Shown here: in pieces, positions 1,242 to 48,229 of the stretch
How the letters are laid out: the number at the start of each line of letters is the position of its first letter
Position numbering within the stretch: position 1 is the first letter of the stretch
IMG/VR virus record: IMGVR_UViG_3300045919_000132
Location: 1 to 51,286 of that record
Source: a virus
Strand: one strand, 5' to 3'
DNA length: 51,286 nt
Notes under the pieces: model-generated
Seen by the model: only the letters and a program-made list of their open reading frames with translations
What the model was told of the DNA's origin: nothing
Database searches by the model: none
Translations under genes and position numbers: made by a program

Positions 1242-2501
1242 CTATTGAAGAATATCCCTATAACGAGCAATTTCAGGTTCAATCAGAATTTCGGTACGCC
1301 CATGACGAAGACGCGACACGGTATCATCGTCGCCGGAGAGTTTGTTTTTGGAAATGTTAAAGAATCGTACATCCTCAAGAGCGGGGTCATGGGTTTTCCC
1401 AATACCCAGAATCCAATCGGCTTCAGCTTGCTTTGACGTTTTCGCATTAGCTACGTTGTCCATAGTCAGCCATTTTTGTCCTTCTCCTGTTCCATCTGCT
1501 TGGCAGACTCCAATAACTGGGCAATATGCTTTTGCAAGTTCTCTAGCCCAGATATAAATGGCCCCAAGTCGTAGGTCTTCCCGATCCGAATCAAATCCTT
1601 TGACTTTATCAATCTGGTCAAAAAGGATGAGAGAAGGTTTGTACTCTCGAATAATGCGTTCAGCTTCACCTTTAAAGAGCGCAGCACGATCAACGATGCG
1701 AATTTTCGACTTTGTTCTTTCGTCAAACGCCCTAGACCATTTGGGAATATCTCCACATAAGTCACTTTGGGTAATTCCCAGACTAGCTTGATAGACACGT
1801 AGGTTTACCTTTTCACCTTGTTCTTCATTGTTGAACCACAGAATAGGGCCGTCTTCGTCCCGCAACTGCGAAGCCATGTACGTGACTTCCGATGCAAGGA
1901 ACGTAGTCTTTCCTGTCTCTGGCCTAGCAAACACAAACCCAAAGTCACCTTTGCGAAGTGACCCTAGGGACCAGTTAAGGAAATTGATGCGCCACCGTAG
2001 GCCTCGCTTGGCGACCTGTTTATCGACCAACTCTGCCAAATCGTTTGTTACGAACAACTGCTCGGAGGTTTCGGTTTCAATCGGAGTGTCAATCTCCGAG
2101 AGCAACGCAGACAGGTCCGTTAGAGGTTTGGACCCGTTCTGCACATCAAAGGCCGTCAGGCTGATCTGAGATAAGACCTGCTGACGCTTGTACGCTTTGA
2201 GTAGCTCCTGCGCGATCTCTCGATCACTTGGGTTTGAGCGCAGTGAATTGAAGATGTCGTTAAAAACGACGTATTTTTTTTCTGTAAGACCAAGGTTCTT
2301 TGATTTGAAAAAGATTTCAAAGTCATCAACAGTGAAAGATTCTTTTTCAGGAAAAGCTTCGTAAAGAAGCTTAATGAATTCTACAAGAGTAAGTAGTTCT
2401 TTGTTGTTTATTTTATAATTAATAATATACTTATAATATTTATTATATATATCTTTATATAATAATATATTAAGTATACCACATAAAACGTTATCTGTCA
2501 A
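1242..2501 (-). CDS. replicative DNA helicase, DnaB/RecA-like
   Basis: A 419-residue protein with a RecA-type motor. Walker A (ARPETGKTT) is near residues 188-197 and Walker B (LILFDQID) near 289-296, followed by helicase-like loops to the C-terminus. Start is TTG 2501 with GAGGT upstream. It would unwind DNA at the fork with the neighbouring primase; here T7 gp4-type functions are split into two genes. The first 40 or so codons are very A+T-rich (Ile, Asn, Lys, Tyr), unlike the rest. A TGNNTATCGACC copy lies inside the gene at 2017-2028. Confidence 0.9.
   Translation of the reverse strand: MTDNVLCGILNILLYKDIYNKYYKYIINYKINNKELLTLVEFIKLLYEAFPEKESFTVDDFEIFFKSKNLGLTEKKYVVFNDIFNSLRSNPSDREIAQELLKAYKRQQVLSQISLTAFDVQNGSKPLTDLSALLSEIDTPIETETSEQLFVTNDLAELVDKQVAKRGLRWRINFLNWSLGSLRKGDFGFVFARPETGKTTFLASEVTYMASQLRDEDGPILWFNNEEQGEKVNLRVYQASLGITQSDLCGDIPKWSRAFDERTKSKIRIVDRAALFKGEAERIIREYKPSLILFDQIDKVKGFDSDREDLRLGAIYIWARELAKAYCPVIGVCQADGTGEGQKWLTMDNVANAKTSKQAEADWILGIGKTHDPALEDVRFFNISKNKLSGDDDTVSRLRHGRTEILIEPEIARYRDILQ
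2017..2028 (+). repeat. TGNNTATCGACC motif, copy 1
   Basis: TGTTTATCGACC. In the helicase gene it encodes an in-frame Val-Asp pair (GTC GAT) on the minus strand. Confidence 0.8.
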
Positions 2502-2510
2502 TACCTAACC

Positions 2511-3281
2511 TCAATTATTTTCGAGTAGCATCTGTTTAATCCTAGCTGGTGGCTCTTCTTTTGGATCACAGTTCGTGTGAACTACAAGAGGTTTGAAGCC
2601 CAATTCCTTAGCCTGTGTCGCAAGCTGAGTAGACTTCCGTTGCATGTCCGGATCAAGCCAAAACACTAACTTGTCGGTCAAAATTAACAATCGTCGCATA
2701 CGTTCAGCGGACAAATCGTTCCCGAACAACGGCATCGCAGCCATGTAACGACTGCATTTGATGGCTGAAACCATATCCTCAACCAACACTATACCATTTC
2801 TTTCGTCATTTGTCAAGCCCAAAATGTGAACAATTTCGGCCACTTTGCCATAAGTGACCCATTTTGGACGTCTGGTAACGGCTGCTCCAAGCCCTTTAAA
2901 GTTGCGTGCTTGATACGCAATCAGGTTTTCGTCGTCGTAGATAGGGAACAACAACTGCTCTTCTTTCTGCGACCACTTGAGGTTGTGCTCTTCCGCTTCG
3001 GCACTGGTAATGCCGTAACTTAGGAGCCATTGTTGAGCTTTAAAACCCAAAGTATAGACGGCATCCTCGGGCATTCTGATTTTGGAGGGGAGCATCTCCT
3101 GTTTGGATACCCCTAGGACCGCTTTAGCGGCCTCTAGGACGACTTCTGTGGTTCGGCTAGGGGGTTCCCCATACCCACAGCCAAAACACCAAGCATGGCC
3201 GTCTTTCCAGCGCCCTAGATTATCCCTGCTACCACAAGAAGGGCAGGCTTCGTGACATTCAAATTCTGAACTGCTAAACAT
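2511..3281 (-). CDS. DNA primase, zinc-finger plus TOPRIM
   Basis: Start chosen at ATG 3281 (MFSSSEF), preceded by GAAGG and overlapping the upstream gene's stop; a longer frame to 3422 is less likely. The N-terminus has a four-Cys zinc motif (CPSCG then CFGCG), as in T7 gp4-type primases. The centre has a TOPRIM-like core with VLVEDMVSA and FWLDPD. It would make RNA primers for the adjacent helicase and polymerase. No helicase domain is fused. Confidence 0.88.
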   Translation of the reverse strand: MFSSSEFECHEACPSCGSRDNLGRWKDGHAWCFGCGYGEPPSRTTEVVLEAAKAVLGVSKQEMLPSKIRMPEDAVYTLGFKAQQWLLSYGITSAEAEEHNLKWSQKEEQLLFPIYDDENLIAYQARNFKGLGAAVTRRPKWVTYGKVAEIVHILGLTNDERNGIVLVEDMVSAIKCSRYMAAMPLFGNDLSAERMRRLLILTDKLVFWLDPDMQRKSTQLATQAKELGFKPLVVHTNCDPKEEPPARIKQMLLENN

Positions 3282-3459
3282 TTTCCTTCTTTCCACCGCG
3301 TTGAAGACAAACAGAAACGGCTTTTGTAGCCACTGTTGAAAAATGCGTACACCAATTTGCAAACTCACTCTGTCGTAACGCTGGAGTGTGATGGTTTCTA
3401 GTGTTTCCAGACCAAAACACACAGTTTTTACAATGTTTGGGTTGTTTTTGTCGGGGCAT
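3274..3459 (-). CDS. small cysteine-rich protein, first gene of the replication operon
   Basis: A 61-residue protein with CKNC near the N-terminus and further Cys at about 37 and 51, so likely zinc-binding. Its stop overlaps the primase start, suggesting translational coupling. It starts 26 bases downstream of the 19-bp dyad at 3486, after an AACAAGG ribosome site. Function unknown. Confidence 0.75.
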   Translation of the reverse strand: MPRQKQPKHCKNCVFWSGNTRNHHTPALRQSEFANWCTHFSTVATKAVSVCLQRGGKKENV

Positions 3460-3485
3460 TATCTTTTAACCTTGTTATAAGTTAA

Positions 3486-3504: not shown

Positions 3505-3520
3505 GTATCGGGACCACATG

Positions 3521-4046: not shown

Positions 4047-4630
4047 TATGCCGGACCTCGGACAAGTCCGGGCCTGCGGCGAGGCGGTGCCGTAGCCAAA
4101 CGATTTGCATCCTGCATCTGTCGCAATGCCTCTATAGGATCATAATTCAATCCCTGTGCTTGATTGTTATTTGGCCGACCCACGACACCCTCCACTCGAA
4201 CCGCATTAGCAAGGCCCTGAAGAGGCTGCCGAATAACAGGTTGCTCAAGCCAATCAAAGTCAGCGGGGTTGATCCGGGGCGCATCCACTGCCACTTTAAC
4301 TGCGGGTTTCTTCTTGGTAGCTTTCTCCTCCTGTTCTTTATCCCAATCTTCCTTGCTCAAAGGCTGCAAACGAAATACTTCAATGTTCACGGCAAGTTTC
4401 TCGGGAAATGCTTCCAAATCCTTGTTGAACATGCGGAACACACCGCTGTGCTGTGATTTGAGCGACACCAGCTTGCGGCTGCTCTCAACCACACAGATGA
4501 TGTTTCCGGGAACAACATAGTCCTGAAGTTGGATCGGAAAATAGACTTGAACGGGTTGTCCTAAATCCGTAAAAAACTGAGGATCGAGACGGAAGGATAG
4601 GACTTTATCCTGTTCAACGGCGACTAGCAT
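4046..4630 (-). CDS. hypothetical protein downstream of ATP-grasp gene
   Basis: 194 residues, not recognised. The first 95 residues look like a compact beta-rich fold; the rest is charged and Pro/Arg-rich, ending in a basic low-complexity tail. It overlaps the ATP-grasp gene by 17 bases and the next gene at TAATG, so it belongs to the same transcript as the amide-ligase cassette. It could be an adaptor or substrate of the cassette; there is no direct evidence. Confidence 0.7.
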   Translation of the reverse strand: MLVAVEQDKVLSFRLDPQFFTDLGQPVQVYFPIQLQDYVVPGNIICVVESSRKLVSLKSQHSGVFRMFNKDLEAFPEKLAVNIEVFRLQPLSKEDWDKEQEEKATKKKPAVKVAVDAPRINPADFDWLEQPVIRQPLQGLANAVRVEGVVGRPNNNQAQGLNYDPIEALRQMQDANRLATAPPRRRPGLVRGPA

Positions 4631-5411
4631 TCATTTCTCCCATGAGGTTGACAACTGCATTGGCGTAATTGTTTACCGTTTGGCCCGACAAGCCGGGAGC
4701 GGTGTTGACTTCGAGGACGTAGCACTTGTTTTCTTTTTCGTTGTAGATAACGTCAACGGCTCCGAAGTGGAGTCCAAGTGCCTGTACGGCGGAAACAGCA
4801 AGTTCGTCCAAGCCTGTCGGTTTCTGGATATTCTCTCGGCAAAAAACCCATCCGTTCTGATAGGATCGAACTTGGTAGTTGACTTGATCATTTGGGACCT
4901 CCTGACGTTTCTTTTTCTGTTGACAATCGATTACTTTTCTACCAAAGACATGGACTCGATACTCGTGCTTTTTTGGGATATATTTCGTATACAATGGTGC
5001 ATTTGTAAACTGCTCTCCCGAACACCTGACAATTCCGCGACCAGAGTGCCCGTTAAGCGTTGTGCGCGCAAAAATAGCTCTTTCCGCTGCCCATTGTCGG
5101 GCAACTCCCATATCGGTAGTGAATTCTGGGCACGGTACACCTCTCTCAGCAAATCGATTAAACGTTGCGAGTTTATTAGAAGCAATCGCAACCGCTGCTC
5201 GGGAGTTGACAAGATTGGGGGTGCTGAGTCCCGTTGATGCACTTGATCCCCAATTGATATAAAGCCGGGAGTTTTTGACACGATGCGTCTTCGATTGGTT
5301 ATCGACCTGAAAAACTTTGGATTTGAGTAGTTCAGTTAAGCGTGCTGCTAGAAGGCGCGAGGATGCGCTCCCCATCTTGTACGGCATCAATACGGGTTTC
5401 TTGAGTTTCAT
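4614..5411 (-). CDS. ATP-grasp ligase
   Basis: 265 residues with ATP-grasp features: a nucleotide-binding loop with GHSGRG near 118-125, EYRVHVF in the centre, and a C-terminal metal/ATP segment GAVDVIYN...LEVNTAPGL (about 214-243) carrying the Asp, Glu and Asn ligands. Such enzymes activate a carboxylate as an acyl phosphate and join it to an amine or other nucleophile. Neighbours are a class II amidotransferase and two COOH-NH2 ligases, pointing to peptide or amide synthesis. Substrate unknown. Overlaps the upstream gene by 80 bases. Confidence 0.88.
   Translation of the reverse strand: MKLKKPVLMPYKMGSASSRLLAARLTELLKSKVFQVDNQSKTHRVKNSRLYINWGSSASTGLSTPNLVNSRAAVAIASNKLATFNRFAERGVPCPEFTTDMGVARQWAAERAIFARTTLNGHSGRGIVRCSGEQFTNAPLYTKYIPKKHEYRVHVFGRKVIDCQQKKKRQEVPNDQVNYQVRSYQNGWVFCRENIQKPTGLDELAVSAVQALGLHFGAVDVIYNEKENKCYVLEVNTAPGLSGQTVNNYANAVVNLMGEMNASRR
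5296..5307 (+). repeat. TGNNTATCGACC motif, copy 2
   Basis: TGGTTATCGACC, in frame as Val-Asp in the ATP-grasp gene. Confidence 0.8.
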
Positions 5412-6801
5412 CTTTCTTCTCCGCTCTGTTGAAACGCTTCATAACACAATTAGCGCAAAACACACGCCCGATACCTTTGGTAGTACTCAATTCCACAGAT
5501 GTGAACTGCTGCTCCGCATCTTGAATCAATGCGGCACAATCGTTGCATTTGTGGTGACTTGCAACACGTTTCCAAATGGTTTGTGGAACCCGACGCCTAT
5601 TCCACAACTCAACCATCGTAGGCCCAACAACATCCTTGAGGCGTATCCACGGGCCGTTTACGGTTACCCCGGAAGATACAACTGTTCCGGACAACCAGTT
5701 GTCGCCGTTGCTGTCTTTTTCGGTTGAATCTGCAATGTCTGCTACCTCGCCCGTCCAATCGGCATCTCCGGTAATGTCAATTTGAACTCCCTCAAAAACA
5801 ACATTGCCTGTGGTGGCAACAAAAGGCTGGTTGGTGGCTGTGTTTAAAATACGCTGAAGGCGCGTTACTTTGAACTCAAGTTCTTTGCCAACAGCATATG
5901 GTGCAATGGCTCGTGTCCAAACTTGTCGAATGTCGGAAGTAGGTTCATTAGTTGCCCGCGTCTCTAGCGCCGGAGCAACGACCGCCTTGTCCTTGTCCGT
6001 AGACAAATTAGAGGGGCGGTCAACAAAAGGGTAACCATCTCCACACTCGGATTCACACATACCCGCATAGTTGTGTTGAACCGTAGTGCCCCACGCCTTG
6101 GGCCTGTACTCGGTGGCAGTAAATTCCTCGCCGGTTTGAAATTCCAACATTACGTGGGGATCGAGAGGAGAAGCTTTGCCGATCTTGATGGCACTGTGTC
6201 CGCGACGGGCAGGCCCGGCGGCACCCGCAAGCATCCACGGTTCGGATGCCACCATCCAAAGACGTTCCGTTTCAGCAATCCAGAGAGGACGTTCCGGGTT
6301 ACGTGCAATCCGCAACGTCTTGTCGCGCTTGTCGTACCACACAAGAGCATAGGCACCGACGATGCTTTCCAGCACTTCTTTGGCAGGCTTGTTGTTCAAT
6401 CCACGGGCGAGGGCTTGACTATCGACCGCCGCCTTCTGATCAAACATCTGGGCGTTTCCGATGTATCCATTGTGAATCAGAATAATGTTGTCTTCAAGAA
6501 ACGGATGGGAATTGGCCGATGAAATCTGCCCAACAGTTGCCTTGCGGTTATGCCCAAAAACCATGTTGAATGACCGAGTGATCTTGCTCTTGAATTTGTC
6601 GTACTCCATCAACTCGACAAAGTTGGAAGCATTGGTGCCTTGTTTGGTCAGATACGCCTGCTTGTTCTGATAGACACCAAAACATCCTGTGCCGTCCAAT
6701 CCACGGACTTGGTTCATGAGAAGCATGTCCGTAAATATGTCTGCTTCCGGCGCATAAAAACCGGAAGATTTCTTTGCGATCAAACCAACGATGCCACACA
6801 T
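5332..6801 (-). CDS. class II glutamine amidotransferase (Ntn hydrolase) with C-terminal zinc ribbon
   Basis: 489 residues. It begins MCGIVG, so Cys2 is the expected N-terminal nucleophile after Met removal. RGLDGTG (about 34-40), GHNRKATVG (83-91), NSHPF and HNGY follow, the signature of GlmS/PurF-type glutaminase domains. Residues about 270-489 are a separate region ending in a CxxC...CxxC zinc ribbon. It should release ammonia from glutamine for a partner ligase; no synthetase domain is fused, so the adjacent ATP-grasp or amidoligase proteins are candidate partners. Confidence 0.9.
   Translation of the reverse strand: MCGIVGLIAKKSSGFYAPEADIFTDMLLMNQVRGLDGTGCFGVYQNKQAYLTKQGTNASNFVELMEYDKFKSKITRSFNMVFGHNRKATVGQISSANSHPFLEDNIILIHNGYIGNAQMFDQKAAVDSQALARGLNNKPAKEVLESIVGAYALVWYDKRDKTLRIARNPERPLWIAETERLWMVASEPWMLAGAAGPARRGHSAIKIGKASPLDPHVMLEFQTGEEFTATEYRPKAWGTTVQHNYAGMCESECGDGYPFVDRPSNLSTDKDKAVVAPALETRATNEPTSDIRQVWTRAIAPYAVGKELEFKVTRLQRILNTATNQPFVATTGNVVFEGVQIDITGDADWTGEVADIADSTEKDSNGDNWLSGTVVSSGVTVNGPWIRLKDVVGPTMVELWNRRRVPQTIWKRVASHHKCNDCAALIQDAEQQFTSVELSTTKGIGRVFCANCVMKRFNRAEKKDETQETRIDAVQDGERILAPSSSTLN
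6416..6427 (+). repeat. TGNNTATCGACC motif, copy 3
   Basis: TGACTATCGACC, in frame as Val-Asp in the amidotransferase gene. Confidence 0.8.
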
Positions 6802-6805
6802 AACT

Positions 6806-7702
6806 TTATTGCTTCCTCTTCAGAAAAACGTTGAACGGAGATTCCGTTGAAACACCGGAAAGAAGTTGATTTGTTACTGCCTTCCCGTGGAGAGCCGAGA
6901 ACACAGAATCAATTCCTTTTCGACACAGTTTGAAAATTTCTTTGTGGGCAATTACCTGCATAACATCAGAAGAAAACACATTCTCAAGAAATGCACGGGG
7001 GCCTGTGGACTCAAGAGTTTTATAGACAGTATCTATAGTTGTGCGGCGGGCAAACAGAAGTAGGTCATTGATGATCCGGAGCCACATAAAAACCTTCTCT
7101 TTGTCTCGGCACCCCGGCATGTGTCGGAATTCAACCGTTCCAAGATCAACCAACCGTGTAAGATTCAGCGCACTATATTTCTCCCATGAGCCAACAGCAC
7201 GATGCTGACTAGTGATCAGGTTTCCAATCAAAGTATCGGGATACGTCGTCTCCACAACCGGAACACAAAAGATACTACCTGCCCGGTCAGAGGAGGCGTA
7301 GTCAAATAAAATGCGTTCGACAACACAATAAGTTAACAGCAGAGTTTGTAACTGCTCCCATGAAAAATCGCGCACATTCACATGCACATGGATGGAAGTA
7401 CGCTGCGAAAATGACCAATCCGCAGGAAGCCCGTTCCACATCAAGTCCACAGCTTCGACGATAGCTCCACCGGAGCAGGGTACAGACACATACTCAACGC
7501 CGCCATTTCGAAGACTGCCATCAGTGTGGGAGTTCCACAACGTCCCAAACATCTCGTGCTTGAAGCTACCGTGACGGCTCCTCGCATTCTCAACTTCTAA
7601 CTCGATCCCGCAAACAAAATTGGGATCAAAGGGAGATTCTTTCTTGGACTGCACAACGTCCAATCGATTGGGCCATTGGTACGTCTTAGCGAGGGGCGTC
7701 AT
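6806..7702 (-). CDS. amidoligase (COOH-NH2 ligase, Amidoligase_2-like)
   Basis: Start at ATG 7702 (MTPLAKT), with AAGGA six bases upstream; the longer frame to 7894 runs through the previous gene. 298 residues. Glutamine-synthetase-like amidoligase motifs: GIELEVE near 27, DGSL...GGVEYVS near 60-75, SIHVHVNV near 102-110 and VEFRH near 189. These place acidic, His and Arg residues for ATP/metal and carboxylate binding. Known family members are predicted to form amide bonds between a carboxylate and an amine. A 19-bp dyad lies inside the gene at 7020. Confidence 0.82.
   Translation of the reverse strand: MTPLAKTYQWPNRLDVVQSKKESPFDPNFVCGIELEVENARSRHGSFKHEMFGTLWNSHTDGSLRNGGVEYVSVPCSGGAIVEAVDLMWNGLPADWSFSQRTSIHVHVNVRDFSWEQLQTLLLTYCVVERILFDYASSDRAGSIFCVPVVETTYPDTLIGNLITSQHRAVGSWEKYSALNLTRLVDLGTVEFRHMPGCRDKEKVFMWLRIINDLLLFARRTTIDTVYKTLESTGPRAFLENVFSSDVMQVIAHKEIFKLCRKGIDSVFSALHGKAVTNQLLSGVSTESPFNVFLKRKQ
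7020..7038 (-). promoter_or_regulatory. 19-bp dyad element inside the amidoligase gene, site 2
   Basis: TTATAGA-CAGTA-TCTATAG, 13 of 14 arm bases matching. It is fully within coding sequence, where it encodes an I-D-T-V-Y stretch. It may drive the downstream amidotransferase and ATP-grasp genes, or be coincidental. Confidence 0.5.
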
Positions 7703-8300
7703 ATACTTTCCTTTGAAATACAGGGTGAAGGGGCGTCCTAACCAACGTATCCTCGCTGACCGTCGCGATGGGAGTTTGATGGTGGAACAAAAGAAAATCC
7801 TTAGCTTTGGTAATGCTAAGTCCCACCATAAACTCCGAAGAGATTCCCACACAGTAGCTAGTCCCGTCCTTGAGCATTTGAATAGCCGTTGCAAAGTCTG
7901 GGTATGTGGGCCGGAACATGCTGTCTGCCATCCACAATTCCATGGATGGCATCAGAATCAACCGATTGGTCGTGTAGAAATTCCCACGAGTGGAAGTGCT
8001 GGCACACAAGGCCCGTTTATTTTGACGAATCGGTCGCCGAAAAAAGGAATAGCCGATGTTGTTAAAGTTGAATACCCCAGTTGCAGGAAACTCAAAATTA
8101 ATCTCGCCCTCACCGCCATAACGGACAATCTGCGTTCCCGCCAGTCCCTGCAAAGCAAACGTAGGGGCCGCATTTTCTCCGGGATAGATTGCCGCCAACG
8201 AAACAGTTTCAAACTCCTTGTTCGAGGTGGGTTTGTAGCGAATGTAAGTGTGGAGATAGCGAAGAACAAGGTCTTCGTATAACCGGCCAAAATCAATCAT
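7686..8300 (-). CDS. hypothetical protein within amide-ligase cassette
   Basis: 204 residues, not recognised. Soluble, aromatic-rich, with no clear catalytic motif. It overlaps the type 2 ligase gene by ATGA at its start and the amidoligase gene by 17 bases at its end, so it is co-translated between two ligases. It could be a subunit, substrate-binding protein or diverged ligase. Confidence 0.72.
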   Translation of the reverse strand: MIDFGRLYEDLVLRYLHTYIRYKPTSNKEFETVSLAAIYPGENAAPTFALQGLAGTQIVRYGGEGEINFEFPATGVFNFNNIGYSFFRRPIRQNKRALCASTSTRGNFYTTNRLILMPSMELWMADSMFRPTYPDFATAIQMLKDGTSYCVGISSEFMVGLSITKAKDFLLFHHQTPIATVSEDTLVRTPLHPVFQRKVYDAPR

Positions 8301-9094
8301 GCAAGACCCTGTTCAGCAAACGCACGAATCTCCGGCAAATAACGCTTGTCGGAATTGTTGATGGTGTGAACGATCTTGTAGGAAATGTTGTCACCTGCCA
8401 AACCATTCACATCCGGGAGCGTGGCTTTGCCTTTCTCGACAAAGGTAAGGGCTTTCTCTGTCTGCCGATACGCCCACTCCATCAGTTCCCTCGACTTGAT
8501 CCACGCATTACTCGCGGTGCGATACTCGATGCCATAAGGCTTGCGGCGGAACGCCCCTGCCTTGCCATAGAGTTTGCGTCGCTCGGTGTCTTCGTCAAAC
8601 TCCAACATCTCGCAGCCAACGAACACATCCATTGCACGGACAACTTGCTCAAAGTTGTACTTCTTCCAATCAAAGCCAACATGGATGTGACCACCTGCAC
8701 TGCGAAGATTGGCTGCTACATTGGTCGGCCTCGGATTCTGTTGACGAGTCCACGCATTGAAGTCCGGGTCACACCCAAACACACGGGATTCCGGGGTTTC
8801 AAGTTGCTCCCACGGAAACATGCCGGAAGGCTCGATAGCCAAGACCAAACCCAACTTTTCAGCCTCGGATTTCAAGTAGTCCATATTGTAGTCCAGCTTG
8901 GCAACAAACGACTCGATGCTGTCGCAGGGTGGAATGTTGAACTCGACAGCTACGTTGTCCTCTTGGACAGCACATCCCTCACCGATAGGTTTGGGTGCTT
9001 CCTTGGTTCCTCCGATCAATCCGATGGAAGAAACAAATTCGCCTGCTGCATTACGCAAAAACAATTCCGGATCAGCACCAATAGTGAAGTTCAT
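8297..9094 (-). CDS. COOH-NH2 ligase type 2 (phiEco32-like)
   Basis: 265 residues opening with GADPELF at 6-12, typical of the phage phiEco32-like COOH-NH2 ligase type 2 family. AVEFNIPP near 48-55, GGHIHVG near 131-138 and GIEYRTASNAW near 188-198 complete a glutamine-synthetase-like active-site set. Predicted to ligate a carboxylate to an amine using ATP. It is a second ligase type in the same operon as the Amidoligase_2-like protein, which suggests two sequential or distinct amide linkages. Confidence 0.87.
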   Translation of the reverse strand: MNFTIGADPELFLRNAAGEFVSSIGLIGGTKEAPKPIGEGCAVQEDNVAVEFNIPPCDSIESFVAKLDYNMDYLKSEAEKLGLVLAIEPSGMFPWEQLETPESRVFGCDPDFNAWTRQQNPRPTNVAANLRSAGGHIHVGFDWKKYNFEQVVRAMDVFVGCEMLEFDEDTERRKLYGKAGAFRRKPYGIEYRTASNAWIKSRELMEWAYRQTEKALTFVEKGKATLPDVNGLAGDNISYKIVHTINNSDKRYLPEIRAFAEQGLA

Positions 9095-11026: not shown

Positions 11027-11039
11027 TGTTTATAACTCC

Positions 11040-11953: not shown

Positions 11954-12289
11954 TTACAGTTCTCCGTCGTTCTCGTAGTACATGTCATTCACAAATTCCC
12001 GCACCACTTGATGAGCCAGTTCATTCGGCTCTTTCTTGACGGTGTAGGGAATCTTCTTCATGCGGCCTTCCGCAATCTGGCGACCGGTTTTCTTGTTGAA
12101 TACATCATTGCCACCACAAGTAGCAACGCCGACCAGAATCGTCTCGTTATCGACCTCGGTGAACGCAGCAGTGTAGCCGTTGCGCATGTAGCCCTTACCG
12201 ACAGGCTCGAAATGCATGGTCTTGGTGGTGTTGTGGACGAACTTGGTAACAGCGGCTGCAACTGAGGCAACGGTAGTGCGAACTGGCAT
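11954..12289 (-). CDS. hypothetical protein, first gene after dyad element
   Basis: 111 residues; ATG 12289 is preceded by AACAAGGATATAAA and the dyad at 12309-12327. Basic N-terminus, beta-rich centre (TILVGVATCGG) and acidic end. Not recognised. Confidence 0.7.
   Translation of the reverse strand: MPVRTTVASVAAAVTKFVHNTTKTMHFEPVGKGYMRNGYTAAFTEVDNETILVGVATCGGNDVFNKKTGRQIAEGRMKKIPYTVKKEPNELAHQVVREFVNDMYYENDGEL
12144..12155 (+). repeat. TGNNTATCGACC motif, copy 4 (TC variant)
   Basis: TCGTTATCGACC, the only copy with TC instead of TG. In frame as Val-Asp in the 11954-12289 gene. Confidence 0.65.
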
Positions 12290-13302: not shown

Positions 13303-13601
13303 TTTCCAGCAAGCTCCATCAGGTTGACTTCCTTGGACAGATCTGCGAGACGGCGTTGATTATCGACCCGCGTTGCCGTACCTTGAATCACCACACCTTC
13401 ACGACCCGTGGCAAAACGTTGACGCCGACGAGCGGCACGGTTGATGTGCGTGGAACGTGCCGGAGGCGGCAATTGCGGCGGCGAGTTGTAGGTTTTGACC
13501 GGCGGCGGAGCCGAGAACAGATCATGCAGCATGACCAAGATCAAACCGCCGATAAGCAGGATGGGCACAACATACGACAACATCGACCAGATGAAGTTCA
13601 T
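13299..13601 (-). CDS. membrane-anchored hypothetical protein
   Basis: Start at ATG 13601 (MNFIWSM) with GGAG eight bases upstream. 100 residues: one N-terminal TM segment (about 8-27), a Pro-rich linker and a basic Arg-rich tail facing the cytoplasm or periplasm. Coupled to the 33-residue ORF upstream. Function unknown. Confidence 0.68.
   Translation of the reverse strand: MNFIWSMLSYVVPILLIGGLILVMLHDLFSAPPPVKTYNSPPQLPPPARSTHINRAARRRQRFATGREGVVIQGTATRVDNQRRLADLSKEVNLMELAGK
13357..13368 (+). repeat. TGNNTATCGACC motif, copy 5
   Basis: TGATTATCGACC, in frame as Val-Asp in the membrane-anchored protein gene. Confidence 0.8.
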
Positions 13602-13965: not shown

Positions 13966-14048
13966 TGGTGCCCGATATGGGAGTCGAACCCATATGCTTG
14001 CGCGAGGGATTTTAAGTCCCTTGTGTCTACCATTTTCACCAATCGGGC
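13966..14048 (-). tRNA. tRNA-Leu (UAA)
   Basis: 83 nt including an encoded CCA. 7-bp acceptor stem GCCCGAT/ATCGGGC, anticodon loop CTTAAAA giving UAA, a long variable arm typical of class II tRNAs, and a TTCGACT T-loop. Reads UUA codons. Confidence 0.95.
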
Positions 14049-14382: not shown

Positions 14383-14598
14383 TTACAGGTACAGCCCTTT
14401 GGCGGAGAGTTGCGCGGCGATGCTTGAGGCACCGTAGCGTTTCACCGTAATGGCGTGCTTATCGACCGTGGATTTGTGAGTCTCAGCGATGACGCGAGCA
14501 GTTTTGTCGCGTTGCTGTTTCAGGGTCCGCGCCAGATTGCGTGCGGCCTGTTCGTCCGAGATACGGACAGTGCTAACGTTCGTTTGATTCGTGTTCAT
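14383..14598 (-). CDS. hypothetical basic protein
   Basis: Start at ATG 14598 (MNTNQTN), with GGGGGT six bases upstream inside a CATTAC/GTAATG mini-hairpin. 71 residues, Lys/Arg/Ala-rich and probably helical. Function unknown. Confidence 0.65.
   Translation of the reverse strand: MNTNQTNVSTVRISDEQAARNLARTLKQQRDKTARVIAETHKSTVDKHAITVKRYGASSIAAQLSAKGLYL
14456..14467 (+). repeat. TGNNTATCGACC motif, copy 6
   Basis: TGCTTATCGACC, in frame as Val-Asp in the 14383-14598 gene. Confidence 0.8.
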
Positions 14599-14644: not shown

Positions 14645-14839
14645 TTACAGCGGATTGCGGCGCAGGGATTGCAGACCCGGCGTGTGGATCACTTCGTGAT
14701 CCGTGAACGTGTGACGCTCGAAACCACGCGGCACATCTTCCACAGGCTTGCAACGCGGCACATACTTGGCCGCATTGGAAGGAGTCATCGACGCCAGAAT
14801 GGCCGACAACTTACCGGATTTGCTGGTGAGTTTGCTCAT
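14645..14839 (-). CDS. hypothetical basic protein downstream of structured leader
   Basis: Start at ATG 14839 (MSKLTSKSG) with AAGGAG upstream; the longer frame would run through the structured leader and an upstream gene. 64 residues, Ser/Lys-rich N-terminus. Function unknown. Confidence 0.65.
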   Translation of the reverse strand: MSKLTSKSGKLSAILASMTPSNAAKYVPRCKPVEDVPRGFERHTFTDHEVIHTPGLQSLRRNPL

Positions 14840-14854
14840 TTGAATCTCCTTAAT

Positions 14855-14904
14855 CACGGCAAGACGCCGCGATGTGGTGTGTATCGACCGTGACGCACAC
14901 CACA
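14855..14904 (-). ncRNA. structured leader element 1
   Basis: On the minus strand: a 9-bp perfect stem (14896-14904 with 14873-14881) whose 14-nt loop contains the GGTCGATA core, followed by a CGGC/GCCG hairpin inside the 16-nt block at 14855-14870. The same block and order recur at 15925-15975, with a different stem sequence. It ends 15 nt before the ATG at 14839. Likely a cis-acting RNA leader or a DNA-level element. Confidence 0.5.
14878..14889 (+). repeat. TGNNTATCGACC motif, copy 7 (non-coding)
   Basis: TGTGTATCGACC; the TATCGACC core fills the loop of the 9-bp hairpin of leader 1. Confidence 0.8.
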
Positions 14905-14915
14905 CGCGAGGCACC

Positions 14916-15050
14916 CTACAGAATGATGTCAGGTTGAGGTGGGAAGGGCCACGACTCGGTGCGTTGAGTGCGCCAGTGATCTCGGGCCATGTTGCAGACA
15001 ATCCGCAACAAAAAAGCGTATTGAGTGGGAATCAGAGGATAAGGCATCAT
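14916..15050 (-). CDS. small hypothetical protein (44 aa)
   Basis: Start at ATG 15050 (MMPYPL), overlapping the stop of the previous gene (ATGA); a longer frame to 15104 lies inside that gene. 44 residues, Trp/Pro-rich C-terminus. Function unknown. Confidence 0.5.
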   Translation of the reverse strand: MMPYPLIPTQYAFLLRIVCNMARDHWRTQRTESWPFPPQPDIIL

Positions 15051-15924: not shown

Positions 15925-15975
15925 CACGGCAAGACGCCGCCGTTAGCCAATTGTATATCGACCCAAAAGGCTAAC
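15925..15975 (-). ncRNA. structured leader element 2
   Basis: Same order as leader 1: the identical 16-nt block (15925-15940), then a stem GTTAGCC/GGCTAAC (15942-15948 with 15969-15975) whose loop holds the TATCGACC core. Stem bases differ from leader 1 but pairing is kept, suggesting selection for structure. It sits 16 nt upstream of the ATG at 15908. Confidence 0.5.
15952..15963 (+). repeat. TGNNTATCGACC motif, copy 8 (non-coding)
   Basis: TGTATATCGACC, in the loop of leader 2. Confidence 0.8.
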
Positions 15976-17012: not shown

Positions 17013-17024
17013 TGTATATCGACC
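17013..17024 (+). repeat. TGNNTATCGACC motif, copy 9 (non-coding)
   Basis: TGTATATCGACC, between dyads 8 and 9. Confidence 0.8.
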
Positions 17025-17135: not shown

Positions 17136-17165
17136 GTATCCCGTGCATTTTTGTTTATCGTCCCC

Positions 17166-17177
17166 TGTTTATCGACC
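17166..17177 (+). repeat. TGNNTATCGACC motif, copy 10 (non-coding)
   Basis: TGTTTATCGACC. A near-copy (TGTTTATCGTCC) precedes it at 17152-17163 as a 14-nt tandem repeat, and a 7-bp hairpin follows at 17180-17196. Confidence 0.8.
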
Positions 17178-20275: not shown

Positions 20276-20555
20276 TGGAAAACGAGATTATGCAAAAGAA
20301 TACGCATGGATCAAGCGAACTGGTGGCCTTAAAAAGATCGCTGCAAGAGTCCAAGCCCGGCGAAACGTCATTAAAAAAGTCGGAGCTGCTGCCGTCCGAG
20401 GTAAAGATGTGGATCACAAACAAGCTCTTTCTCATGGCGGAACTAACGCAGCGGGTAACCTTCGAATCCTGTCTCGCTCCCGTAATCGGAGCTTCAGCCG
20501 TAATGCTGACGGTTCGATGAAATCAGAAACTTCCAAAAAAGAACGGAAAAAATAA
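20259..20555 (+). CDS. HNH endonuclease-like protein
   Basis: 98 residues, overlapping the previous gene by 17 bases. Contains DVDHKQALSHGGTNAAGNLR (about 50-70) followed by NRSF, matching the D-H...N...N pattern of phage HNH nucleases found beside terminase genes. A basic C-terminus supports DNA binding. Probably works with terminase in genome cleavage for packaging. Confidence 0.75.
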   Translation: MPFMTNGKRDYAKEYAWIKRTGGLKKIAARVQARRNVIKKVGAAAVRGKDVDHKQALSHGGTNAAGNLRILSRSRNRSFSRNADGSMKSETSKKERKK

Positions 20556-34255: not shown

Positions 34256-35938
34256 ATGGCACAACAATTTGTAAATGGTGAGTTAGTTGACGATAGCCAA
34301 AATGACCAATCGAGTCCAATGGCAGGACTGGCTTCCACATCAACCCCTACAGGAAAGCCGCAAGGCAATCCGTGGCAGTCAGTTGATTACTCCCCTGAGT
34401 TAATTAAATCCTCCAATTACGGAGGGTCTTGGGGCGGCATTGGTAAAGATTTGCAGGGTCTGGGTGACCAATATCAACTGGGTCAAGGAACGTGGGGTAA
34501 GGCGATGGATGCCTACCTCCAACACACAGGCAACACATCCAATGATCAGCAATGGTGGGGTCCTGAAGCTGCTAAACGAGCCTACATCCAAGGTCTTGGG
34601 TACATGGACCCGGATAAATACGGTAATGCTTGGAATGATTATCAAAACTCAGGTAAATACAATCAAGCGGCTGAAACTGCTCAACAGGGACAATCGGCCG
34701 CAACAGGTATGGCTGATCAAAAGAAAAATGGCGGGAGTGACTGGTTTAGTTCATTCCTCCCTATGCTGGCTCTTGGTGGAATTGGTCTTGCTACAGGTGG
34801 TTTTGGATTTGGTCTTGGAGGTTTAGGTGGGGCCGGTTCCGCGATTAACGCGGGAATTACCGGTGATGCAATGGCAGGATTCTTTGGTGGTGGCGAGGCA
34901 TTGGGTGGAGCAGGTGCAGCCGCCGCTGCCGGTGGAGCCGGGGCTGGTGAACTAGGCTATGGGTTAGATAACATCATTAACTCCACTGCCGGGGACGTTG
35001 CTGGTTGGGCTGGAAGTCAGGCCGGTGATCCTCTCTCGGGACTGTTTAGTGGGATGCCCAGTGGATTTGATCCGGGACTTGCCCAAACATTTATGGGCAA
35101 TGACCCTGCCGCAGCAACCAACATTGAACAGGCTTTAAATAGCCCGACACCCGCCTCAACATCAAATGTGCCTTATGCTGATGGTCAACCAATGCAGAAC
35201 ATTGGTAATATTCCTGATCAGGTTGGTCCCATTGATCCCCAAGCTCCCCAAGGACTGGATCAAGCCGTTCGTGGTGGACTGGATTCCCAAGGCGCTAATA
35301 TGCGCATGGGTGGTCCCGGACTTAACAACCTTTATGGTTCACCCGGCTCTGCCGGATCAATTAATGGACTCAATCCCGGAGCATCTAGTTTTCTAGGTAA
35401 CACTCCGGTTAACGTATCGCAGGCGGCTATGAACCCTTCTTCGTTTGGTCTTAACGACATCTTTAAAGCATTTCAAAGTCCGGAAGGCACTATTGGCCGG
35501 AAGCTCTTTGATTTGTACAATCAAAATCAAAAAGTTGGAGCTTATAAAGACTTGATGAGTAAGTTTCAGTCGCAAGGCGATCCGGGAGCACCTTTCCGGC
35601 AACGGCTGCAAGCTTCATATGATGATCCCAATTTCTTCAAGAATATGCCGGAGTATCAGGCTGGGATGGATAACTTCAATCAACAGTACGGTGCTACAGC
35701 AGCTAAAAATGGACTCCGTTCCCAGATGGGTGGTACTGCCCAGAACATTGCCGTTAACCGTGCATCTGCCGGTTTAGCTGATACGTTCCGCAGCCGTCTT
35801 GCTCAAATGGCAGGTCAACAACCCAATATGTCTGGTCAAATTGGCCTAGCCAACAGTTTAGTTTCAGCTCAGGGTAATCAATTCAATACGTTGTTTGATC
35901 CTAGCCTGTGGGCGGCCATTTCTAAGTTGAGTGCATAA
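34256..35938 (+). CDS. ejection (internal virion) protein 1
   Basis: 560 residues. Gly/Ala-rich hydrophobic middle (about 160-240) that could insert in membranes, flanked by Gln/Asn-rich and Pro-rich regions, and a helical C-terminus. First of three consecutive genes with internal-virion character. Probably extends the DNA channel through the host envelope. Confidence 0.65.
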   Translation: MAQQFVNGELVDDSQNDQSSPMAGLASTSTPTGKPQGNPWQSVDYSPELIKSSNYGGSWGGIGKDLQGLGDQYQLGQGTWGKAMDAYLQHTGNTSNDQQWWGPEAAKRAYIQGLGYMDPDKYGNAWNDYQNSGKYNQAAETAQQGQSAATGMADQKKNGGSDWFSSFLPMLALGGIGLATGGFGFGLGGLGGAGSAINAGITGDAMAGFFGGGEALGGAGAAAAAGGAGAGELGYGLDNIINSTAGDVAGWAGSQAGDPLSGLFSGMPSGFDPGLAQTFMGNDPAAATNIEQALNSPTPASTSNVPYADGQPMQNIGNIPDQVGPIDPQAPQGLDQAVRGGLDSQGANMRMGGPGLNNLYGSPGSAGSINGLNPGASSFLGNTPVNVSQAAMNPSSFGLNDIFKAFQSPEGTIGRKLFDLYNQNQKVGAYKDLMSKFQSQGDPGAPFRQRLQASYDDPNFFKNMPEYQAGMDNFNQQYGATAAKNGLRSQMGGTAQNIAVNRASAGLADTFRSRLAQMAGQQPNMSGQIGLANSLVSAQGNQFNTLFDPSLWAAISKLSA

Positions 35939-43421: not shown

Positions 43422-43428
43422 CGAGTGG

Positions 43429-45102
43429 TTAGGAACCGCACGATCCTCCCTTACCGGTAATGTCGCAAATGTCGGATTCTTCAAACTCTACTCCTTTGTG
43501 GTTAAGTGCGTCGGTGTATTCAACTTTGGTGATGGGTTGACCTCCTCGACTTCCATCCGGATAGCACGTAAACCCACGAAGTCTTGGAGCGTATCTTGCA
43601 AGTGTGGCAGTAAATCGGTCAACACCGTCAGGACTGTTCCCCTTGCTTCCCCAAGACGGGAGATTAATTGTGGAGGAAATTGACATGTCAACGTAATCCT
43701 GTATGTCTGCTTGGAATTTGATTCGTCGTTCTGGGTCATTGGCTAGGTCTGTGGCTGTTTCAATCGAGTCTGGATCGAGTCCAAAATCATTGATAAGACG
43801 TTGCGCTGTTCCGTCGATAACATATTGATATTTCCATCGAGTGCCGTCAGTAAGGTAGCGGCGTTTGTAAGCAACCGCGTAAAGGGGTTCAATACCAGTA
43901 GTTGTGGAAGCCATGATTCCGATGGTGCCTGTTGGAGCGATGGCGCGATATGCCACTGGCCGGGATATGAAGAGCCGGTCACAGTGTTCGTTTGCGCTTG
44001 ATTCGCTGCTGTTTTTGTAGACATCTAACCAGCTCCTGAGTTCGTTGTTGATTTCATATTTGTATTTTCGTTGGAGGAGCCATTCATGAATTCCCATGAG
44101 TCCCAATCCAAGACGCCGATTCTTTTCCCTGACTTTGTATACTTTGTCGTAAGGCAAGTCTGCTCGAAGAGTGCCGCAGACAAGAAACTTGGAAGCGAGG
44201 GCCACAACATCTTTGAATTCCTCGATGGTTTCAATGTTACCAAGATTAATACTCCCTAGATTACAAACATCCGAATCATCTTCGGAGGTAACTTCAGTAC
44301 AAGCATTTCGTAAGGTTTCATTCCATTTATCTCCAAAGTTGAAGCTAAAACCCGGCTCACCTGTACTCAACGCTTGATAGACGTTTTGCTTGAACACTTG
44401 ATTATCGACCAAACCGTTGTAAATTTCAACACCACTTCCTGTGGGTCCATTGATAACACTGTCATCATAATTAACACTAATGTTAGTCATGTCCAACGGA
44501 GCAGGGAAGTTAAAGTCGTTAGCTTTCTGCTCTTTAACTAACTCTGTCCAATTTTTGCTTCCAAGGAAGAGAGGCATGTCCTCATGCTGCCAATTAAGTG
44601 ACGCATATATGGCGGATCGTCGGGAGCCTCCTTGCATGACATTTCGACCAATTTCGTTGATTGCAAACATAAGTGGTAAAGGTCCAGACGCTTTTCCTCC
44701 GGTACGTGTGAGAGCGCGGCCAGAAGCTCGGAGTCGTGAATAATCAATGCCAATGCCGCCTCCAGTCATCAGGCAAGACATAGCTCGCCAAGTTACGTTG
44801 CTCCATTCTTCCCGCGTGTCTTCCTCGGCTCGGAGGAGGTAGCAGTTGTTGTACGCTTTGTAGGGCCGCCCAGCATAGTACAGGTAGCGACCGCCGGGAA
44901 TAAACTTGTGTTCTTTAATGAGATTTGCCAGCGTGTCGCAATCTCCTTTTCCCAGTAGGCGATTAGTCGTGCCATTTCGGGTTCCACAGACATCCTCCAC
45001 GATTCGTTCAGCTAGGTTGTCCCAAGTGTCGTTAGGACCCTGAGCATATTTATTACGGAAAATAGACTCAGCAAAGCTGGTCTTAAATCGTTGTAGTTCC
45101 AT
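43429..45102 (-). CDS. nrdJ: ribonucleotide reductase, class II-like (adenosylcobalamin-dependent)
   Basis: 557 residues, shorter than class I large subunits and with no small-subunit gene nearby. PGGRYLYYAGRP (70-81) and NNCYLL near 87 give one redox Cys; NACTEV near 263 gives the catalytic N-x-C-x-E; CNLGSINL near 278 the second; APTGTIG near 388 matches substrate binding. A C-terminal Cys pair (CDITGKGGSC) would regenerate the disulfide. Makes dNTPs for phage DNA. It would need host cobalamin. Confidence 0.88.
   Translation of the reverse strand: MELQRFKTSFAESIFRNKYAQGPNDTWDNLAERIVEDVCGTRNGTTNRLLGKGDCDTLANLIKEHKFIPGGRYLYYAGRPYKAYNNCYLLRAEEDTREEWSNVTWRAMSCLMTGGGIGIDYSRLRASGRALTRTGGKASGPLPLMFAINEIGRNVMQGGSRRSAIYASLNWQHEDMPLFLGSKNWTELVKEQKANDFNFPAPLDMTNISVNYDDSVINGPTGSGVEIYNGLVDNQVFKQNVYQALSTGEPGFSFNFGDKWNETLRNACTEVTSEDDSDVCNLGSINLGNIETIEEFKDVVALASKFLVCGTLRADLPYDKVYKVREKNRRLGLGLMGIHEWLLQRKYKYEINNELRSWLDVYKNSSESSANEHCDRLFISRPVAYRAIAPTGTIGIMASTTTGIEPLYAVAYKRRYLTDGTRWKYQYVIDGTAQRLINDFGLDPDSIETATDLANDPERRIKFQADIQDYVDMSISSTINLPSWGSKGNSPDGVDRFTATLARYAPRLRGFTCYPDGSRGGQPITKVEYTDALNHKGVEFEESDICDITGKGGSCGS
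44399..44410 (+). repeat. TGNNTATCGACC motif, copy 11
   Basis: TGATTATCGACC, in frame as Val-Asp in the ribonucleotide reductase gene. Confidence 0.8.
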
Positions 45103-45553: not shown

Positions 45554-45556
45554 TAA

Positions 45557-46549: not shown

Positions 46550-46959
46550 TACACATTCTCCTGATACACTCGTTCACGGTCCATTTGATCTGGTTTCCAG
46601 CGATCATCTAGATCGGGCCGATGTTTCGTAAAATAACTGAGAAACATCCAGCAACAACCAAGGTGATCAACATGAAGTAAACCGCTTTCGGGATCAATGT
46701 CTTCTCCGCGTTGAATAGAAGCAAGATGGCGATGAATTGCAGCAATAAGACGAGAGTAGCTGATACCACCTCGCCAGTTATGTTCAGCATATTTTTTTGC
46801 TCCAAAGGTCAGGACTTGTGCCAGTCCTTCAAGTGCATCAGGGTCAAGCAAATCCATACGAGGTTTGTCTTGATCAAACTTCATTCCCGTCGGAGGGCTA
46901 CCCCCAGTATCAAAATCACTACGTAGAACCCAAGTATCATTCCCAGCATCTTTAGCCAT
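46549..46959 (-). CDS. dATP/dGTP pyrophosphohydrolase-like protein (DUF5664/MazZ family)
   Basis: Start at ATG 46959 with GAGAGGAA upstream; the longer frame overlaps the phosphatase gene. 136 residues with KPRMDLLDPDALEGLAQVL, FGAKKYAEHNWRGG, AIHRHLASIQRGEDIDPESG and HVDHLGCCWMFL, the Glu/Asp/His set of the family. Likely hydrolyses purine dNTPs and shapes the nucleotide pool. No PurZ accompanies it. Confidence 0.82.
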   Translation of the reverse strand: MAKDAGNDTWVLRSDFDTGGSPPTGMKFDQDKPRMDLLDPDALEGLAQVLTFGAKKYAEHNWRGGISYSRLIAAIHRHLASIQRGEDIDPESGLLHVDHLGCCWMFLSYFTKHRPDLDDRWKPDQMDRERVYQENV

Positions 46960-47713
46960 ACTTCCTCTCAAGGTAACCCAACGACACATACATGGGCATA
47001 AAGTGCCCTTCATTGACCTCATGAAACATCCACAATCCTCGGTCATACGTATTGCCTTGCGGACCAAGATAATCCTCATTGTGCGTGTAACACGAGCCTG
47101 CAAACAGCGTAATGATTGGCTTACCATCCCCGCGAACATCTCGATTCATATCCCAATTCTGCACATGGCCCATAACGCAGGACATGTGTTTCTTGACTGC
47201 TAGTTGCCTAGCATTCGGCACAGGACGCCCCATAACCCCTGAAGTGAAATAGTGAGAGTAAGCGATGCCGTCAATAACAACAATTTCAAGAAAAGGATAA
47301 ACTTTCCATCCTGCTTCCGCATACCCTAAGTCTTGGGTGGAGAGGACTCCCTCAAGTTTAGCGTCGTTCTCGACAGCCTTGACAATACGATTTTCATGGT
47401 TGCCAAGAGTGAGGTGGAGTTCCGGAGTATACTGCTTTGACTTATTTTTTCGGCGCTGGTCGTTGTATCGATTAAGTGGCCCAAGCAGAGTAGCCATAGC
47501 TCGCTTTGTTGCAGCAACGTCATCGATGTACCGCCTACCCTCGAATGATTTTTTTCCCACATCATAAGACGAAAGGCTAGGCATATCAGCGAAATCTCCC
47601 AAGCAGATGATTTTTTCAGGCTGCTTTTCAACAATGTACTTACCAATTCGTTCGAGATACTCAATATCTACTCCCGGTTTTACTTGACAATCAGGTACGA
47701 CCAAATGTTTCAT
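46952..47713 (-). CDS. metallophosphoesterase
   Basis: 253 residues with calcineurin-type motifs: DCQVK near 8, GDFAD near 38, GNHENR near 102 and a late GHVQNWDMNR. AAGGAG site upstream. Hydrolyses phosphoesters, possibly of nucleotides or DNA/RNA ends. Operates next to nucleotide-metabolism genes. Confidence 0.82.
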   Translation of the reverse strand: MKHLVVPDCQVKPGVDIEYLERIGKYIVEKQPEKIICLGDFADMPSLSSYDVGKKSFEGRRYIDDVAATKRAMATLLGPLNRYNDQRRKNKSKQYTPELHLTLGNHENRIVKAVENDAKLEGVLSTQDLGYAEAGWKVYPFLEIVVIDGIAYSHYFTSGVMGRPVPNARQLAVKKHMSCVMGHVQNWDMNRDVRGDGKPIITLFAGSCYTHNEDYLGPQGNTYDRGLWMFHEVNEGHFMPMYVSLGYLERKYG

Positions 47714-47721
47714 AAGACTCC

Positions 47722-47898
47722 TTATTGTACTGTGTCTGGACCTTCAACAATTTGATTGTCCTCAATATACTTAACTGCGCCATTTCGAACCATTGTGGTA
47801 ATAAACCATTTCACCATTGCCGAGACTTGTTTTTGATCGAGTTCCGTCTTAAATGTAATAGTACCTTCTGGGGTTTCAACAACTTCACTGATTTGCAT
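47722..47898 (-). CDS. small hypothetical protein (58 aa)
   Basis: ATG 47898, overlapping the previous gene's end, to TAA 47722, nine bases before the phosphatase ATG. Product MQISEVVETPEGTITFK... is mixed alpha/beta. Function unknown. Confidence 0.6.
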   Translation of the reverse strand: MQISEVVETPEGTITFKTELDQKQVSAMVKWFITTMVRNGAVKYIEDNQIVEGPDTVQ

Positions 47899-48229
47899 TA
47901 CTTACCTTTTTAAAGAACCATTCTGCGTCCACTAGGACCAATGGTTTTGACCTGTTCTGTTTAATCACTACGAGTGGCTCTAAATCTCCTGCGTTAGCTT
48001 GAGCTTGTTCATAGAATTTGTATACGGCAATTGCCTTGAGGTTCTTACATTCAATGGCAAAGGGGTGTTGGAGTTTGGCGGCTTGCGATAGTTGAATATC
48101 GACCCCGGTCTGGCCCATGCCAGTTGATCTTACATCATCAGAAGTTAGGGTCGGCGAGTGCATCAAGATCAGGTCGCGCACTGTCTGCTGCAAGCTCCGC
48201 CCTTTCGCTTTCGCGGAAGAAGTCTTCAA
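47885..48229 (-). CDS. PD-(D/E)XK-type endonuclease
   Basis: TTG start at 48229 is favoured, with AGGA six bases upstream; the ATG at 48250 lacks a ribosome site. 114 residues. The N-terminus has KAKGRSLQQTVRDLIL, followed by GQTGVDIQLS and FAIECKNLKAI: the D...E-x-K core. Likely a DNA nuclease for replication intermediates or host DNA. Overlaps genes on both sides. Confidence 0.75.
   Translation of the reverse strand: MKTSSAKAKGRSLQQTVRDLILMHSPTLTSDDVRSTGMGQTGVDIQLSQAAKLQHPFAIECKNLKAIAVYKFYEQAQANAGDLEPLVVIKQNRSKPLVLVDAEWFFKKVSNANQ
48093..48104 (+). repeat. TGNNTATCGACC motif, copy 12
   Basis: TGAATATCGACC, in frame as Val-Asp, the predicted catalytic Asp region of the PD-(D/E)XK gene. Confidence 0.8.

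Follow-up and report, generated by a model that had tools for sequence, protein, structure and literature searches.

A one-strand word in the early arm of a two-armed phage as a probable nicking site, with a small terminase-linked HNH protein as the candidate enzyme

The IMG/VR virus record IMGVR_UViG_3300045919_000132, analysed here from position 1 to 51,286 (51,286 nucleotides, hereafter the window), represents a two-armed phage of about 50 kb in which the word TATCGACC occurs 12 times on the plus strand and never on the minus strand. Comparison of sequences suggests that this word is the recognition site of a phage strand-specific nicking enzyme, most likely a 98-amino-acid HNH protein encoded at 20259-20555 on the plus strand between the small and large terminase genes, a reading to which we assign a probability of about 0.65. 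The leftward arm of the phage encodes a split family A DNA polymerase, a DnaB-type helicase and a primase together with ATP-grasp, glutamine amidotransferase, amidoligase and COOH-NH2 ligase genes, and the rightward arm encodes terminase, portal, capsid and other structural genes. Judged by its portal, the window is closest among named phages to Alcaligenes phage vB_Af_QDWS535 (54% identity), in which the layout is the same.

A first-pass annotation of this DNA had listed 12 copies of the word by eye and all were recovered at their positions, as was the TG four bases upstream that it had reported for 11 of them (TGNNTATCGACC, 11 copies on the plus strand and none on the minus strand); the departing copy, at 12144, carries TCGT. 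Confinement of the word to the leftward arm also held, with all 12 copies of TATCGACC in this 26.7-kb arm and none in the 24.5-kb late arm. An order-3 Markov model predicts 0.38 copies of the 8-mer TATCGACC per strand against the 12 and 0 observed (p ~1e-14), and dinucleotide shuffles (n=100) gave a mean of 0.79 copies over both strands and a largest count of 4. When 7- to 9-mers with at least five copies were ranked under the same order-3 model, TATCGACC led the one-strand 8-mers of the window; other words of like strength derive from a repeated palindrome. The conserved extent of the word is 12 bp including two free positions, and with GGWC allowed, as in relatives (below), the pattern GGWCGATANNCA occurs 12 times on the minus strand and not at all on the plus strand. 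Copies with one mismatch number seven on each strand, which is no surplus.

Nine copies lie inside called open reading frames (ORFs), not eight as previously counted, and the in-frame Val-Asp reading that had been ascribed to every coding copy applies to eight of these nine. Two residues on, the Val-Asp copies encode Gln (six), Glu (one) or His (one), and the ninth coding copy (14882, in ORF 14645-15001) sits in another frame. Among the three frames, that of Val-Asp is probably the mildest for a word containing TAN and ATA. A host preference for this codon pair, which had been raised as a possible origin of the word, does not explain it: synonymous-codon shuffling of the 41 leftward ORFs gave a mean of 0.47 and a maximum of 3 copies, and none of 2000 shuffles reached the 9 observed. 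GTCGAT makes up 10 of the 38 Val-Asp pairs in leftward ORFs and none of the 31 in the 26 rightward ORFs. The strand bias exceeds both the shuffled and the codon-preserving models.

The candidate nick sites, all assigned to the minus strand and given here as they read on the plus strand, lie at 2017-2028 (TGTTTATCGACC, which is GGTCGATANNCA on the minus strand; helicase gene, Val-Asp frame), 5296-5307 (TGGTTATCGACC), 6416-6427 (TGACTATCGACC), 12144-12155 (TCGTTATCGACC, the copy with one departure), 13357-13368 (TGATTATCGACC), 14456-14467 (TGCTTATCGACC), 14878-14889 (TGTGTATCGACC, outside the Val-Asp frame), 15952-15963 (TGTATATCGACC, outside called ORFs), 17013-17024 (TGTATATCGACC, in the divergent region and outside called leftward ORFs), 17166-17177 (TGTTTATCGACC, also in the divergent region), 44399-44410 (TGATTATCGACC, ribonucleotide reductase gene) and 48093-48104 (TGAATATCGACC). 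A near copy at 17152-17163 (TGTTTATCGTCC), which has GGAC on the minus strand and pairs with the 17166 copy at 14 bp, is likely a further site because relatives accept GGWC for GGTC. Tandem pairs or triples of sites 13-14 bp apart, as at 17152-17177 in the divergent region, are also seen in relatives at 4477/4490/4503 of G031 and 39574/39587 of G016 (record coordinates).

Comparison with relatives, which had been proposed as a check on the word, revealed lineage variants of it on the sense strand of the replication arm in related two-armed phages. Relatives were collected as 160 loci by portal and helicase, of which 36 whole records were counted and 26 contigs analysed whole; these 26 with QDWS535 and MW202796 form a set of 28 relatives. 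Oriented by helicase or portal (a portal match is absent in G004 and G006), the 26 contigs have the layout of the window over the part that they cover. In QDWS535 an unbiased scan gave TGATCGACC (11 copies on one strand and none on the other, or 11/0) and TGATAGACC (5/0). Among the relatives, the top words by lineage on the replication-arm sense strand were GGTCGATCA, GGWCTATCA, GGACGATCA, GWCGGTCA and GGACTATCA; the scan of the 26 contigs was repeated with close copies declustered. A significant panel word (p < 1e-5) is present in 21 of the 28 relatives, and none was found in MW202796 and G024. Across all 28, GGWCNRTCA occurs 172 times sense and 15 times antisense in the early arm compared with 32 and 29 times in the late arm (~610 kb each). 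The lineage's own word is found 145 times sense and never antisense in the early arms of 21 relatives (omitting G022, with the word on both strands, G001, G005, G015, G024, G036 and MW202796), a ratio that is partly built in because the scan retains only one-strand words. Fairer measures are the 172/15 above and the 178 sense to 37 antisense copies of GGWCNRTCA at 80 helicase loci chosen regardless of the word, for which the pattern read backwards gave 58/27. Early copies fall inside early-strand ORFs in 134 of 169 cases (21 relatives, the window and phage tf, with tf arm limits set by hand from its annotation) and use all three frames (40/32/62); of the remainder, 18 are non-coding and 17 lie under an opposite ORF from a simple ORF caller. 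Flanking sequences in the relatives are not strongly conserved beyond 9-10 bp, as in tf.

The lineage words can be arranged in a graded series, GGTCGATCA, GGTCTATCA, GGACTATCA, TACTATCA, TACTATGAC and TACTGTGAC, the last being the word of tf. The early arm of G015 carries TACTATCA (10/0), intermediate between GGACTATCA and TACTATGAC, and through such intermediates the window word appears related to the tf motif TACTRTGMC. The same TACTATCA at 6/0 in ICP2 is only suggestive of such a word, and G048, at first taken as tf-like on the strength of a ten-mer (4/0), was dropped as the shorter word is balanced at 7/7. Other strong one-strand words were seen in L059 (G023), L033 and G015, namely CGCTAAGGT (18/0), GAGGTTAGC (19/0) and GTGCCAACCT (19/0); those of G023 and G015 vanish or shrink on declustering and are probably local repeat arrays.

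Applied to tf, the same scan ranks TACTGTGAC first (11/0), which is the proven nick site of that phage, and in PaP3 it ranks the nick word GTACTATGAC first; in LUZ19 the fourth word is part of the phiKMV nick word in reverse complement. In T7 and Andromeda the scan returned words that we take to be their polymerase promoters (for T7, overlapping words of a longer block), therefore it detects one-strand signals of several kinds and further evidence is needed to tell them apart. Nicks in tf are reported at TACT/RTGMC, at 14 positions of a single strand, with detailed mapping of two by primer extension (PMC3517423), and breaks at GTACTATGAC in a LUZ24-like phage have been deduced from read pile-ups at 8 positions (PMC3634792). 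Nick motifs of LUZ24-like phages are described as lying on one strand, 88% in genes, mostly on the coding strand and concentrated in one half of the genome (PMC11780129). The tf word is also reported from UFV-P2, in which a different HNH gene is called homing (PMC3890496).

The window resembles the tf, Rembedalsseter and LUZ24-like interruptions (TACTRTGMC or WACTRTGAC) in having a short asymmetric one-strand word in about 8-14 copies, and the tf type in particular in that the copies cluster in the early arm and lie on the coding strand, mostly inside genes; like tf and PaP3, it also encodes a homologous HNH protein. It differs in the word itself (GGTCGATANNCA), as TACTRTGMC occurs on neither strand of the window, and in placement, as the late arm has two of the 14 tf sites and none of the window copies; nicks are known in tf, and would be predicted here. 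With phiKMV (CGACxxxxxCCTA/CTCCGG) the window shares a repeated one-strand nick-type word, the phiKMV version of which the same scan picked out in LUZ19, although the words differ and no homologue of the window HNH was found in LUZ19. The major nicks of T5 (R/GCGCRGG) are likewise localized to one strand, unlike the T5 word, which is different from that of the window and is said to occur on the un-nicked strand too (PMC3517423). No homologue of this HNH was found in the 120,000 T5 bases searched.

The HNH gene follows a probable small terminase subunit gene (19721-20275, plus strand; Pfam Terminase_5 at 0.0044, below its cut-off), which overlaps its start and the product of which was found in 23 of the 28 relatives, and is followed directly by the large terminase subunit gene (20556-22088, plus strand). 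In this it resembles other small phage HNH endonuclease genes beside terminase genes, such as GVE2 HNHE and those of the HK97 type. Most of these enzymes are described as recognising 3-5 bp, unlike the 9-12 bp one-strand site proposed here, and the window protein has no Pfam match (no family at 0.01); its PHROG matches are HNH families at 5.8e-4 and 0.0049. The terminase-adjacent GVE2 enzyme is reported to nick DNA (PMC5304195). Over 61 HNH sequences R9, H53, N67 and N76 are invariant, including the conserved catalytic His and Asn. With regard to the beta-beta-alpha metal fold of HNH enzymes, an AlphaFold2 model of the protein (mean predicted local distance difference test score, pLDDT, 85.8; predicted template modelling score, pTM, 0.61) has as its best HNH fold match the Gme HNH structure 4h9d (Foldseek E 0.56; Z 4.4, root mean square deviation 7.5 over 76 residues), and profile and fold searches together place this Geobacter HNH nuclease at or near the top, weakly. 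The authors of 4h9d describe weak, apparently non-specific nicking (PMC3765158). In the window the HNH has an unusual stretch before the catalytic His, and the window site is also unusual (GAT-ANN-CA).

When the 67 window ORFs were compared with all genomes, the HNH protein stood out. It is present in 23 of the 28 relatives, in tf and in PaP3, and was not found in G024 and MW202796, both also without the word, in three fragments without a terminase match, or in T7, Andromeda, LUZ19, T5, KZY1, T2S2 and MW202785. Genomes with a significant word (p < 1e-5) encode it in 26 of 29 cases, the other three being the fragments without a terminase match (G030, G034 and G035). Conversely, 26 of 46 HNH-bearing records have a significant word (tf being counted by its own scan word) against 0 of 9 complete or nearly complete records without the HNH, a group that omits those three fragments (Fisher 0.0016, relatedness ignored). 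HNH types also accompany word types: GLKVGDPRQADH and GDVGH types occur with GWCGGTCA, including in G004, G006 and MW202697, which have no matching portal, the SKPEVKKR type with GGTCGATCA, and the ERTTLRR type with GGWCTATCA. On matched genome sets, HNH distance tracks site distance more closely than do 27 of 28 other protein families, and its partial Mantel correlation given polC, helicase, primase, terL, exonuclease or COOH-NH2 ligase is 0.39-0.54 (p < 0.001), in tests that leave some phylogenetic dependence and with site words assigned by hand, not blind (G003, G007 and G046, with weak words, were included; G001 and G005 were excluded). The case for the HNH protein as the cutter is thus one of distribution and covariation.

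The tf HNH as query matched 245 phage records, among which were LUZ24-like, phiEco32-like and Grimontviridae phages. Eight distant phages were taken by their HNH, which was confirmed in all eight, and counts of ACTRTGAC (five phages) or TACKRTGAC (three) were viewed before the scans. The prediction of a tf-like word succeeded in part, with such a word first or second in five of the eight: ACTACTGTGA (13/1, first) in SNUABM-01, CTACGGTGAC (8/1, first) in GAP52, CTACTGTGAC (6/0, first) in P59, ACTACGGTGA (5/0, first) in APT65 and TACTACGGTG (5/0, second) in BUCT695. These five (pSal-SNUABM-01, GAP52, P59, APT65 and BUCT695) are 77-90-kb enterobacterial and Aeromonas phages with TACKGTGAC-type words, and no report of nicks in them was found among the literature matches listed.

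A number of observations weigh against the word as a nick site of the HNH protein. That the DNA of the window's phage family is nicked at all is read from sequence. The 36 records, and then the 26 contigs, were chosen partly with counts in view so that totals favour the word, and at the 65 helicase loci outside the 26 contigs the ratio is 92/32, little above control; these 80- and 65-locus ratios indicate that the trait is found in part of the wider family. In the late arms of the 21 relatives 13 copies of the lineage words follow the early-sense strand and 6 the opposite one, therefore strand fixation there is not absolute, and the G022 word is on both strands (6/4). No significant panel word is present in 20 of the 46 genomes that bear the HNH, including CW02, KpnP_VR7901 and MEP401. 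No tf-like word was found near the scan top in phiEco32, SU10 and LAh_6 (TACKRTGAC 4/1, 3/1 and 7/2), and in BUCT695 the full TACKRTGAC is balanced (2/2). The likeness of the protein to solved HNH nucleases is weak, and the window-type HNH was seen elsewhere only in G036, a 21-kb record that is almost wholly late arm. LUZ19 and T5 are without this HNH though reported as nicked, and other enzymes must therefore exist. One family, a metallophosphoesterase, outdid the HNH on its 21-genome subset (0.84 versus 0.68).

This last result bears on an explanation that keeps the nick sites and assigns the cutting to another protein, whether the metallophosphoesterase (46952-47713), a PD-(D/E)XK/RusA-like protein (47885-48250) or the terminase, with the HNH as a fellow traveller. 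The metallophosphoesterase is also encoded by tf and PaP3, and general phylogeny correlates with the sites too (polC 0.59 and exonuclease 0.56, with partial correlations of 0.34 and 0.36 remaining given HNH). However, the metallophosphoesterase was not detected in the site-bearing G004, G006 and MW202697, the 47885-48250 protein occurs in just 4 of 28 relatives, and the HNH partial correlation survives each of the six other proteins, so we regard a different cutter as unlikely. Somewhat less likely still are asymmetric regulator-binding sites acting on early-arm transcription, of which the repressor-type stoperators of mycobacteriophage L5 are a comparable case. Orientation along early transcription, location in and between genes and close pairs or triples (17152/17166 in the window; G031 and G016) would suit such sites, but no repressor, integrase, RNA polymerase or sigma factor was named among the 47 of 67 window ORFs scanned against PHROG (many unmatched), the sites are sharp as judged by the even one-mismatch counts, and the same scan and signature mark the proven nick sites of tf. 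Promoters of a phage RNA polymerase were considered and rejected, as only 9-10 bp are conserved and the early copies mostly lie inside early-strand ORFs and not in upstream blocks.

An RNA-level signal in early messages, that is a processing or protein-binding motif GGUCGAUA, would account for restriction of the word to the sense strand of early genes, yet late-arm lineage words in relatives are more often antisense to the late genes (13) than sense (6), and two late-arm sites of tf retain their absolute strand and are nicked in DNA, which makes this explanation improbable. We attach the least weight of all to primase recognition sites or a codon-pair artefact. T7-type primase sites are short, frequent and built on GTC, and the minus strand of the window word does start GGTC, the feature on which the first-pass annotation had based its primase option; nevertheless a word of 9-12 bp with 12 copies in the 26.7-kb arm and none in the 24.5-kb late arm is too long and rare for such sites, and in relatives GGTC gives way to GGAC or TACT. 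The artefact would fit the eight of nine coding copies read as Val-Asp, and is contradicted by the codon shuffles, by the absence of GTCGAT from late Val-Asp pairs and by the use of all frames in relatives. Of the three options originally offered, the nick site of T5, phiKMV or tf type is thus the one favoured by comparative evidence, because the signature is like that of tf, PaP3 and Rembedalsseter, a graded series leads to the tf word and an HNH protein covaries with the site; nicking itself we infer.

If the HNH protein is indeed a nickase of this word, it would cut only the strand reading 5'-GGTCGATANNCA-3', that is the minus or coding strand of the early genes, and by analogy with tf this early sense strand is the more likely of the two to be nicked. 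Alignment on tf TACT/RTGMC would place the cut at GGTCG/ATANNCA in the window and GGWCN/RTCA in relatives. On this view around a dozen ligatable nicks would be present in the early half of the mature DNA, to be repaired after DNA entry, and a role in initial packaging, recombination or entry may be envisaged. We see even odds for a broader proposal in which small HNH proteins, terminase-linked or in the early region and coevolving with a 9-12 bp site, make a major class of phage nicks, with a one-strand code for each lineage (GGTCGATCA, GGWCTATCA, GWCGGTCA, TACTATCA, TACKRTGAC and the split window form GGTCGATANNCA) and a span from LUZ24-like phages through this 50-kb group to Grimontviridae. 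Strand-specific phage nicks are described as known for about 50 years and of unknown function in PMC3517423 and PMC11780129, in which responsible genes are named only for T5 (sciA and sciB). Among the matches listed from open-access literature (subscription papers and bioRxiv being outside its scope), none links such nicks to this HNH and none reports nicks in Zobellviridae or Grimontviridae. The present analysis adds another phage group to those with candidate nick sites, shows that the site varies from lineage to lineage and points to a single small protein as the likely nickase, making the question directly testable; if the reading is correct, these phages hold a natural collection of nicking enzymes that are strand-specific and have 9-12 bp sites.

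Several other features of the window were noted. A megablast search of 20000-44000 against a phage genome set and a search of the protein at 34256-35938 against a viral contig set gave no match, and an Rfam scan of the window found no RNA family beyond two minus-strand tRNAs, tRNA-Leu(taa) at 13966-14048 and tRNA-Thr(tgt) at 49586-49661. The family A DNA polymerase is split into two ORFs at the contig ends (57-1241 and 50418-51137), as also seen in QDWS535, MEP401, MW202697 and ICP2, and a 28-bp near-repeat, differing at one position, is common to both ends. A gene cluster at 4614-9094 encodes the ATP-grasp, glutamine amidotransferase, amidoligase and COOH-NH2 ligase proteins; it is also present in several Zobellviridae as well as in tf and PaP3, but was not found in MW202796. 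A 19-bp dyad, TTATAGA-N5-TCTATAA with slight variants, occurs in 12 copies starting at 3486, 7020, 12309, 13945, 15201, 16520, 16730, 16924, 17117, 18469, 18753 and 49506. In at least three cases the dyad comes just before the ribosome-binding site and start codon of a leftward gene, several copies are in the divergent region and the copy at 7020 is inside an ORF; the dyad looks like an operator or a 5'-leader hairpin.

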